Assembly (NCBI GenBank): GCA_903825945.1
Contig: CAIKCJ010000011.1
Span: 1-64,000 of the forward strand
Origin: an uncultured Actinomycetes bacterium
GTDB taxonomy: Bacteria; Actinomycetota; Actinomycetes; Nanopelagicales; Nanopelagicaceae
Length of the DNA stretch: 64,000 nucleotides
Direction: 5' to 3'
The position numbers and the translations under genes are program-made. The notes under the pieces were generated by a model. That model did not search any database and was not told the DNA's origin. It was given only the letters and a program-made list of their open reading frames with translations. Of this stretch, positions 10,657 through 18,934 are shown piece by piece (the stretch's first letter is position 1; every line of letters begins with the position of its first letter).

Positions 10657-12095
10657 GAGCCGCTCAGAATTTTTAGTGCTGCCAGTGTCGGCATTCCGAG
10701 CATCAAAGGTTGTGGACCGCTCTCTTTTACTCGAGCGTCATATGCATCTCCGCCTCGAGTTGGCCGAATAGATTGCAGTGATCCGACCATGAAATTCGGT
10801 GAAGCGCTATCGATGACCACGGTTGCAATATCTCCAGGGCGAATGTTCTCGGCCTCGAAATGAACTAAGCGGAAATCCGGGGTGCGACCATTAAGTCTGG
10901 CGCGGGATTGATCATGACGACCATCATGATCGCTCGCCAAAACCTCATATGAGTTACCGACGCTAGCTTCGTTGATAGATCCAGAGATCTCTTGCTGGAG
11001 TTTATGCAGCTCTTGATAACGCGCGGCAACAACATCGGCAGCGACCTGATCAGGCATTGTTGCAGCAGGTGTTCCGGGACGCTTTGAGTACTGGAATGTG
11101 TAGGCAGCTGTAAATCGCGCTCTTTTGACTACATCGAGAGTTCCCTGGAAATCCTCATCGCTCTCCCCGGGGAAGCCAACGATGATGTCGGTTGTAATTC
11201 CAGCGTCGGGTATGGCGCTTCGAACTTTTTCAATAATGCCCAAATAGCGGTCGGTTCGGTAGGAACGACGCATAGCTTGCAAAACTTTATCGGAACCAGA
11301 TTGAAGCGGCATATGAAGGTGTGGCATAACTTTAGGTGAGCTAGCCATTGCCTCGATAACATCATCAGTAAAATCTCGTGGGTGTGGTGACATGAATCGG
11401 ATTCGCTCGAGTCCATCAACCTTTGCACATTCGCGTAGCAGCGTTGCGAATGCCCCGCGGTCTCCAAAGCCGACTCCATACGCGTTAACGTTTTGGCCAA
11501 GGAGAGTTACTTCGACAACACCCTGCTCTGCTACTGCGCGAACTTCGCGTAGCACTTCTTCCATCGGGCGGTCTTTTTCAATTCCGCGAAGCGAGGGAAC
11601 AATGCAGAAGGTGCAGGTGTTGTTGCAACCGACCGAGACTGAGACCCAAGCACTGAAAGCAGAATGACGCTTTACGGGAAGGGTTGAGGGAAAATGTTCG
11701 AGCGATTCCTTTATTTCGACTTGAGATTCTTCTTCAATTCGAGCTCGTTCAAGCAAAGCTGGAAGTGAGCCGACGTTGTGGGTTCCGAAAACCACATCTA
11801 CATATGGCGCGCGCTTGATAATGGCATCTTGATCTTTCTGGGCCATGCAACCACCGACAGCAATTTGAAAGCCCGGGTTAGCTTTCTTCAGTGGTGCCAG
11901 GAAGCTGAGATTTCCGTAGAGCTTGTTATCCGCATTTTCGCGAACTGCGCAGGTATTAAATACAACGAGGTCTGGCTGAGAATCAGCTAACGCTGGTAGA
12001 TATCCGGCTTCAAGCAATAATCCCGAGATACGTTCGGAGTCATGCACGTTCATCTGGCAGCCGTATGTTTCGACTACAAAGGTGCGTGCGCTCAT
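10653..12095 (-). CDS. miaB: tRNA-2-methylthio-N6-dimethylallyladenosine synthase
   Basis: Radical-SAM methylthiotransferase acting on i6A37 of tRNA. The 480-residue protein has an N-terminal UPF0004 domain with cluster cysteines Cys13, Cys49 and Cys83, the radical-SAM motif CNNTCTFC (Cys157, 161, 164), and a C-terminal TRAM domain. Its neighbours miaA (downstream, four-base overlap) and recX (upstream, 18-base gap) match the usual actinobacterial order. Confidence 0.96.
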
Positions 12096-16867: not shown

Positions 16868-17137
16868 TTAAGCGGCGTCTTCAACCACCGTGAGATGTGG
16901 AGTTTCAAGTGCGGCTACCTGCGAAGCAACTTCTGCAAGAACATGACCAAGTGAAATTTCTAGGGCTAGACAGATTGCATTGAGCAGCTCCGAGGAGGCT
17001 TCTTTCTGCCCACGTTCTACTTCTGATAGGTAGCCCAATGAGACGCGTGCGCTCTTGGCGACATCACGAAGTGTGCGCCCCTGTGCGACGCGAGTCGCGC
17101 GCAAGGAGTAGCCGATATGGGTACGTAGCAAAGTCAC
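16868..17137 (-). CDS. ClgR-like XRE-family regulator
   Basis: An 89-residue protein that is essentially one XRE helix-turn-helix ([45 protein letters not shown]). The [20 protein letters not shown] segment is typical of ClgR, the actinobacterial activator of Clp protease and envelope-stress genes, and a position beside cinA/pncC is characteristic. It starts at GTG overlapping the pncC stop by four bases. Targets in this organism cannot be read from the window. Confidence 0.8.
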
Positions 17138-17610
17138 ATGCTAAGGATACGCTCAAAACTGGCGATTGCACTCTCAATAGTTGCGTGGCGAATTTCGCTG
17201 CGCGTGCCTTTCAATTCGAGCGCAATAGCGATCGTCTCTCGCTTGGAGGCAATGGCAATCCAGACAGTTCCTGCTTTTTGGCCATAGGCCTTGCCTGGTC
17301 CAGCTACGCCAGTTGTCGAGATTGCAAAATCTGAGCCAAAATTTGCTCGCGCCGCTTGCGCCATCTGGCGTGCCACAACCTCTGAGACCGCGCTCTCCTT
17401 AGTGAGGGTGCGTTTAGGAATGGCCAAGAATTTTGTCTTGCTGGCATCACTATAAGTAATGACTCCGCCGAGAAATGCTGATGATGCTCCCGGGACGTCA
17501 GTGATCACTTGGGCCAATCCCCCACCCGTGATGGATTCTGCTACACAGAGAGTCAAACCATTGCGCTTAAGTTTGCGCACAAGCGCTGTGGCATCTATTG
17601 CCCTGCTCAT
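17134..17610 (-). CDS. pncC: Nicotinamide-nucleotide amidase (CinA C-terminal domain)
   Basis: Deamidates nicotinamide mononucleotide to nicotinate mononucleotide for NAD recycling. The 158-residue protein is the stand-alone CinA C-terminal domain with [23 protein letters not shown] (the AESxTGG motif), [10 protein letters not shown] and STTGVAGPG. It lacks the N-terminal CinA domain. It overlaps pgsA by four bases and the ClgR-like gene by four bases, a conserved actinobacterial arrangement. Confidence 0.9.
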
Positions 17611-18131
17611 TTGGTGAGCGCCTTCTTAAAATAGTCGAAACCGGTCGAGAGTGTGATGCCAATCGTGAAGGCCATAAAGATATCTCGGGGCAGGTGTGCC
17701 CAGGCAGGCAGCGGCAGAATGTAAAAACCAATTCCGAACCCTTGGCACATAGTTTTGAGTTTTCCACCCTTGCTCGCCGGGATAACCCCGCCTCTGATGA
17801 CCGCAAAGCGCAGAACTGTGACTGCTACTTCGCGGAACAGAATAACAATCGTTACCCACCACCAGAGCTTGCCCTGAATTGAGAGGCCGATCATCGCTGT
17901 TCCGATCGCAGCTTTATCTGCAATGGGATCTAGCAGAGTTCCAAAACTTGTCACTTGATTGCGTGACCGTGCAATTCGTCCATCGAAGAGATCTGTTAAT
18001 TCGACGAGGAAAAAACCACACCAAGCAATTATTCGCCAGGCAGAGTCATCTCCACCATTTTTGAAAAGTGCATATGCGCAAAACGGCAGGGCGAGTACGC
18101 GAAGTACCGTCAGTGAGTTAGGAAGATTTAT
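17607..18131 (-). CDS. pgsA: CDP-diacylglycerol-glycerol-3-phosphate 3-phosphatidyltransferase, apparent ATA start
   Basis: Membrane enzyme making phosphatidylglycerophosphate from CDP-diacylglycerol. Translation from 18131 gives 174 residues starting INLPNSLTVLRVLALPF and including the full CDP-alcohol phosphotransferase motif DLFDGRIAR...G...D...D (about 46-68), followed by four hydrophobic helices. The frame has no ATG, GTG or TTG between its upstream stop and that motif. The first standard codon is GTG 17954, which would remove the first catalytic aspartates. An ATA at 18129-18131 overlaps the rodZ stop as ATAA and has GGAG seven bases upstream, so ATA is the likely start; a sequence error (ATG to ATA) is the main alternative. 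Confidence 0.85.
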   Translation of the reverse strand: MNLPNSLTVLRVLALPFCAYALFKNGGDDSAWRIIAWCGFFLVELTDLFDGRIARSRNQVTSFGTLLDPIADKAAIGTAMIGLSIQGKLWWWVTIVILFREVAVTVLRFAVIRGGVIPASKGGKLKTMCQGFGIGFYILPLPAWAHLPRDIFMAFTIGITLSTGFDYFKKALTK

Positions 18132-18934
18132 GACTTGACTCCGGGTCCGTATTGAATGTGCACGACTTGGCCAATTGTGCCTGATACACCGTCATCCTTG
18201 CCATTTATCGTGACATCAACAGCCCCGGCGTTGCCGATTGTGACGTCTATGGGCGCAGTAACGTTAAAAGATTCCGTCGCCCCTTTATATAAAGTGCCAT
18301 GCCATAGAACAGTTCCGTTTGAATCGGTGACCGAGAACCAACTGTTCGCATTCACAGCTTTGAACGAGACCGTGGAAGCGGGAATTGTCGATACGCTCGT
18401 AGTTGGCGTTGTGGCAGGAGAAGTTGCCGGACTGCTTGAAGGAGTAGCACTCGCAACTGGTGCCGCGGGAGTGGACGCCGGAGTCGGTGCTGTTATCGCA
18501 TGAGCAGAAGCTGACGGTTTAGGAGTTGGCTTACTCATTTTTGGTGTGCCGTGGAAGAAAGAGCTCACGGCCGGAATAATGATCAGAAGTGCTATCAAAA
18601 CTATTGCAGCAATCGAAAGTTTCTTGTAAGAAATTTTCGACGAGTCCAAATGACGCGCAGTCGCACTGTTATCAGCCAAGAGATCACTCATAGATCGTGA
18701 ACCCAAATCGGCTTCCTGATTAAACTGCGCAACCAGGACTTCGGGATCAGCGTTGAGTACTTTGGCAATGCTACGAATGTGTCCACGCGCATAAGCGATT
18801 CCGCCAGATGACTCTAAGTTTCCAGCCTCTAGATCCAGAATAACTCGTGGGCGAATACGAGTGCGCGCTGCGACCTCATCGACAGACAAGCCCGCAGATT
18901 CGCGTGCTTGTCTGAGGAGAAGTCCGACAGTCAT
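18128..18934 (-). CDS. RodZ-like helix-turn-helix membrane protein (DUF4115)
   Basis: A 268-residue protein with a cytoplasmic XRE-type helix-turn-helix (about 1-70, LLLRQARESAGLSVDEVAART), one transmembrane helix (about 107-125), a long Pro/Ser/Thr/Ala linker (about 130-190) and a C-terminal DUF4115 beta domain (VNANSWFSVTDSNGTVLWHGTLYKG). This is the RodZ layout, linked to cell shape in rods; actinobacterial copies sit between ftsK and pgsA as here. Its stop overlaps the proposed pgsA start. Confidence 0.85.
   Translation of the reverse strand: MTVGLLLRQARESAGLSVDEVAARTRIRPRVILDLEAGNLESSGGIAYARGHIRSIAKVLNADPEVLVAQFNQEADLGSRSMSDLLADNSATARHLDSSKISYKKLSIAAIVLIALLIIIPAVSSFFHGTPKMSKPTPKPSASAHAITAPTPASTPAAPVASATPSSSPATSPATTPTTSVSTIPASTVSFKAVNANSWFSVTDSNGTVLWHGTLYKGATESFNVTAPIDVTIGNAGAVDVTINGKDDGVSGTIGQVVHIQYGPGVKS

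Follow-up and report, generated by a model that had tools for sequence, protein, structure and literature searches.

Probable initiation of pgsA at an AUA codon overlapping the rodZ stop in a clade of Nanopelagicaceae

The rodZ-pgsA junction

The window, by which we mean the whole stretch of 64,000 nucleotides analysed here, comes from an uncultured member of the Nanopelagicaceae and carries on its minus strand rodZ (18128..18934; Pfam matches to HTH_25 and RodZ_C), followed by pgsA, encoding the membrane-lipid enzyme CDP-diacylglycerol-glycerol-3-phosphate 3-phosphatidyltransferase, and by cinA (17134..17610; Pfam), which forms an ATGA overlap with the pgsA stop. The first standard in-frame start codon of pgsA is a GTG at 17952..17954 (minus strand), which opens an ORF of 115 amino acids. 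Read from the proposed start codon, an ATA at 18129..18131 on the same strand, the coding sequence spans 17607..18131 and comprises 174 codons plus TGA. This ATA overlaps the rodZ stop TAA (18128..18130) as ATAA, and a Shine-Dalgarno-like GGAG (18139..18142) precedes it with a 7-nt spacer; both the position of the overlap and the seven-base spacing agree with a previous, sequence-only reading of the locus.

The 3' end of rodZ reads GGA GTC AAG TCA TAA, and the pgsA frame, which is the -1 frame of rodZ and overlaps it, runs TGA(18194-18192) CGG TGT ATC AGG CAC AAT TGG CCA AGT CGT GCA CAT TCA ATA CGG ACC CGG AGT CAA GTC ATA(18131-18129) AAT CTT CCT AAC TCA CTG ACG GTA CTT CGC. No ATG, GTG or TTG occurs in this frame of the window between TGA 18194 and GTG 17954; the earlier claim that none is found from the preceding stop in this frame up to the conserved motif thus stands, and it extends to the two nearest relatives described below. 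Counted from ATA, DLFDGRIAR occupies codons 45-53 and the GTG is codon 58, so that both aspartates of DxxDG and the NLPN..TVLR start lie upstream of GTG 17954, in line with the proposal that the conserved N terminus and DxxDG..AR are encoded there in frame. The expected truncation by standard ORF calling is likewise real, the 115-aa ORF from codon 58 losing both aspartates. We rejected the GTG as the pgsA start, because it leaves out the active site and is not conserved, being ATC in one of the two relatives.

Read from ATA, the protein matches Pfam CDP-OH_P_transf (PF01066) with E=4e-44, and its best match by far among NCBIfam models is pgsA (TIGR00560), with 108.7 bits, 0.4 bits under the cut-off of 109.1; from the GTG at codon 58 the same model gives 60.7 bits. 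The CDP-alcohol phosphotransferase signature DxxDG..AR...G...D...D is present as DLFDGRIARSRNQVTSFGTLLDPIAD. The best match among solved structures is Staphylococcus aureus PgsA (7drj), and Ile-1, encoded by the ATA codon, aligns with the initiator Met-1 of that protein (MNIPNQITVFRVV). The window genome has a second PgsA-like match, at 31% identity, of which the relatives also carry counterparts; no other close PgsA copy was found in this genome.

The ATGA and GTGA overlaps to which the ATAA had been likened do exist in the window close to pgsA, at pgsA/cinA (17610-17607) and cinA/HTH (17137-17134). Mechanical counting of 4-nt junctions over 680 kb of the window genome returned ATAA 17 times, GTAA 22, CTAA 21, GTGA 16 and ATGA, the commonest overlap type, 62 times. 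Since ATAA junctions are not rare, we dropped the ATAA geometry as evidence by itself, and it is the related genomes that carry the case for the ATA start. The duplex of GGAG with the anti-Shine-Dalgarno sequence, computed with an assumed canonical 16S tail, has an energy of -6.1 kcal/mol, which comes close to the best quartile; across the 499 window-genome genes whose NTG start is shared with the comparison genome G011, the median is -4.2.

The ATA codon in related genomes and its origin

Sixty relatives were searched for pgsA and a further genome collection was scanned as well; a scan of viral contigs found no relatives. The nearest genomes, each a separate species-level genome, are G006 (CAIWXY010000201.1; locus L003), with 97% PgsA identity, and G023 (CAIZGZ010000208.1; L004), with 88%. 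Their junctions read CGG AGC TAA GTC ATA AAT CTT CCT and CGG AGC TAA GCC ATA AAT CTT CCA, respectively. Thus, the ATA, its overlap with the rodZ TAA and the GGAG are present in three of three genomes, which are separate assemblies, and in none of them does ATG take the place of ATA. In both relatives an in-frame TAA lies two codons before the ATA, and only GTC or GCC, ATA, AAT and CTT precede the motif, ATA being the sole codon one base away from ATG. The upstream ATC and the second ATA of the window frame, possible as starts in the window alone, are excluded by this TAA. The outcome that might have overturned the ATA proposal, an ATG at this position or an upstream start restored by an indel, was looked for in relatives: the two nearest show neither, and ATG, GTG or TTG, whether at this site or a number of codons before it, is confined to more distant lineages with a different gene junction. 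Relatives outside the ATA clade use NTG starts for pgsA.

The pgsA codons upstream of the GTG are under purifying selection, with synonymous sites saturated. Between the window genome and G023, pS is 0.81 and pN 0.058 over the segment that runs from ATA through codon 57, and the three genomes differ in codons 0-12 by 7 synonymous substitutions and 2 conservative ones. Only 27 of 81 four-fold sites of pgsA are identical, so recent divergence does not explain why the protein is conserved. In a draft of 51 contigs, one might suspect that the unusual start reflects faulty sequencing or assembly, or a pseudogene in decay; G006 and G023 are drafts as well, and two of the three records are named as MAGs. 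However, this explanation has almost no likelihood in our view, given that ATA and the ATAA overlap agree in three genomes, that strong purifying selection extends along the whole upstream segment and that the genome holds no other close copy of PgsA. The same substitution pattern bears on initiation at an internal near-cognate codon, for instance codon 13 (CTG), which is common to all three genomes and would give a short PgsA devoid of the NLPNxLTxLR segment. Codons 0-12 evolve as coding sequence, though, and the N-terminal segment that they specify is highly conserved and shared with S. aureus PgsA, making an internal start very unlikely.

The -1 relation and the overlap of the two frames would also accommodate programmed -1 frameshifting where rodZ ends, yielding a RodZ-PgsA fusion for which no separate start is needed. 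Yet there is no slippery heptamer at the rodZ end (GCT AAG TCA TAA or GCT AAG CCA TAA), where a slipped tRNA-Lys would face UAA and a slipped tRNA-Ser GUC. In addition, the C-terminal domain of RodZ is extracytoplasmic in known homologues and the N terminus of PgsA is cytoplasmic, so such a fusion would be topologically wrong, and we regard frameshifting as extremely improbable. The ATA start, by comparison, is credible because the upstream frame is coding and conserved, and ATA is the sole near-cognate codon after the TAA in G006 and G023. We consider it very likely, from these comparisons, that AUA is where translation of PgsA begins in this clade.

In a tree of FtsK, the three ATA genomes form one clade with 100/100 support, the sister of which is a clade with ATG starts that lacks rimO. 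The PgsA tree, built on a shorter alignment, fails to unite the three and is weak for clade membership; hence, the FtsK tree was used instead. As a side observation from the pgsA tree, L068 (CAMCPZ010000012.1), titled Bifidobacterium breve, groups with Nanopelagicales-like sequences, and its title looks misnamed.

In most relatives, rimO directly precedes pgsA, overlapping or abutting its ATG, GTG or TTG start, and this pgsA-adjacent locus scores 385-397 bits against TIGR01125. By the same scoring, no rimO was found between rodZ and pgsA in the window genome, the ATA clade or the sister clade; these genomes have only a lower-scoring paralogue of about 300 bits, probably MiaB. In the window genome, this paralogue is the sole TIGR01125-like gene found (10800..12074, minus strand; 300 bits versus the RimO cut-off of 356.95). 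With rimO lost in both clades, ribosomal protein S12 would not be methylthiolated by RimO. In the readable members of the sister clade, rodZ ends about 70 nt before NLPN and the pgsA ATG lies 8-12 codons upstream; in the ATA clade, the spacer, the old rodZ stop and the spacer ATG are all gone. The ATA site itself corresponds to an internal Leu, Val or Ile codon in many relatives, one of which (G004) also has ATA there and ATG four codons earlier. The best reading of these junctions is a single origin of the ATA start, by deletion. Presumably, rimO first disappeared from its place between the two genes, a second deletion then took out the spacer with the rodZ stop and the pgsA ATG, and the formerly internal codon just before NLPN became the start of pgsA.

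Initiation at AUA

In the mechanism that we propose, ribosomes finishing rodZ would halt at UAA and be held at the junction by pairing of GGAG with the anti-Shine-Dalgarno sequence. Re-initiation, or direct 30S initiation, would then place fMet-tRNA on AUA, yielding a PgsA that begins fMet-Asn-Leu-Pro-Asn, with an efficiency below that of AUG. The stop-start overlap fits termination-reinitiation coupling of rodZ and pgsA, as would be expected of the ATGA and GTGA overlaps, with which the junction shares a 4-nt stop-start overlap within a same-strand pair and from which it differs in that the start is AUA. Short overlaps of -4 nt are described as common and coupled (PMC10666635).

AUA starts have precedents. 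In S. aureus, infC, ccpN and citZ start at AUA, as mapped by ribosome profiling, and AUA output is ~10-30% of that of AUG for ccpN and citZ, the value of up to 30% being that of ccpN (PMC13009471). Like pgsA here, these genes have an AUA start, with infC and ccpN behind an extended Shine-Dalgarno sequence, and their expression is low relative to AUG. Unlike them, pgsA is a downstream member of a gene cluster on one strand, with an AUA that overlaps the stop of the preceding gene and that presumably originated within a single small actinobacterial clade when the old start was lost.

A less favourable precedent comes from Escherichia coli, in which changing AUGA to AUAA at the coat-lacZ junction of a coupled reporter without a Shine-Dalgarno sequence abolished the downstream product (PMC9955659). 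In the same species, re-initiation rises more than threefold when a Shine-Dalgarno sequence is present, and an excess of IF3 represses non-canonical starts as well as re-initiation that lacks such a sequence (PMC2268962). The inactivity of AUAA without a Shine-Dalgarno sequence in E. coli implies that this element is probably essential for the pgsA AUA, which would be credible as a start only with it or with a more permissive initiation apparatus. By analogy, GGAG probably makes the AUA usable, and translation of PgsA is predicted to be sensitive to IF3. With regard to the initiation apparatus, no initiator tRNA gene was found in the sampled 680 kb of the window genome. The E. coli gene infC starts at AUU and is autoregulated by IF3. 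It resembles pgsA here in being an essential gene with a near-cognate AUN start, pgsA sharing the IF3 sensitivity as a prediction, whereas an autoregulatory loop is not expected for PgsA.

Non-NTG starts in the genus and the persistence of ATA

A census of starts compared 680 kb of the window genome (1.26 Mb) with 1.44 Mb of G011, covering 579 gene pairs, and returned three convincing genes without NTG at the conserved start, namely, pgsA and two genes that we take to be nadD and a dapC-like aminotransferase, the latter names resting on sequence motifs. Other flags, e.g., L188 18706-19234 and L178 6552-7239, were set aside as tRNA or shadow-ORF artefacts by their look, or because a downstream NTG is shared with the relative. 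The nadD-like gene (L237; G000:C5:40953-41528, plus strand; L188 937-1531) has no ATG, GTG or TTG before GGTFDPIH. All 27 genus genomes carry ATC at the same position, and an in-frame stop lies at most 10 codons before the GGTFDP motif with no NTG between. The dapC-like gene (L267; G000:C15:26961-28040, minus strand) starts at ATT in the window genome; across the 27 genomes the start is ATT in 5, ATC in 10, CTG in 7, GTG in 3, ACG in 2 and ATG in 0, and it is CTG in two other genera. A further case is infC (L100; G000:C14:10818-11315, minus strand), with an ATC start behind AGAGGAAGAG; it begins at ATC in the genus genomes checked, and in G012 and G017 an in-frame stop lies five codons upstream with no NTG. 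That non-NTG starts are enriched over other bacteria is an impression drawn from a census of this lineage alone, and no paper joining Nanopelagicales with start codons was found in the literature searched.

Why the ATA persists is a separate matter from whether it is used. It is plausible that ATA tunes the level of PgsA. We give about even odds to the view that the codon, though used, is neutral and merely left over from the deletion, the Shine-Dalgarno sequence and coupling making up for it, rather than a tuned weak start; this view concerns persistence and is compatible with initiation at AUA. From the four-fold and two-fold sites of ftsK, the probability of keeping the two free bases of ATA by chance between the window genome and G023 is 0.35 x 0.68 = ~0.24, and the T is not free to vary, since the rodZ stop shares it; both points accord with neutral persistence. 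On the other hand, a single A-to-G change turning the rodZ stop from TAA to TGA would give ATG and leave RodZ unchanged, and 0 of 3 genomes have it. The ATGA overlap, despite its 62 junctions in the window genome, has not been adopted, and other members of the genus have kept nadD and dapC on non-AUG starts over a far longer time. A more speculative and rather unlikely extension is that in this freshwater actinobacterial lineage several essential genes (infC at AUC, nadD at AUC, dapC at AUU, AUC, CUG or ACG, and pgsA at AUA) are kept by selection on weak, IF3-sensitive starts, the level of IF3 co-ordinating their output, with pgsA as a recent recruit captured on the AUAA overlap after the deletion.

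AUA starts as such are already known; what is new is the AUAA overlap, its presumed origin by deletion and the accompanying non-NTG starts. Pipelines limited to ATG, GTG and TTG would truncate or mis-start pgsA, nadD, dapC and infC of this genus or call them pseudogenes, a systematic annotation error. Finally, the junction offers a natural case of AUA apparently working in a stop-start overlap, an arrangement inactive in E. coli without a Shine-Dalgarno sequence, and pgsA would thereby provide an example of an essential gene surviving the loss of its start codon.
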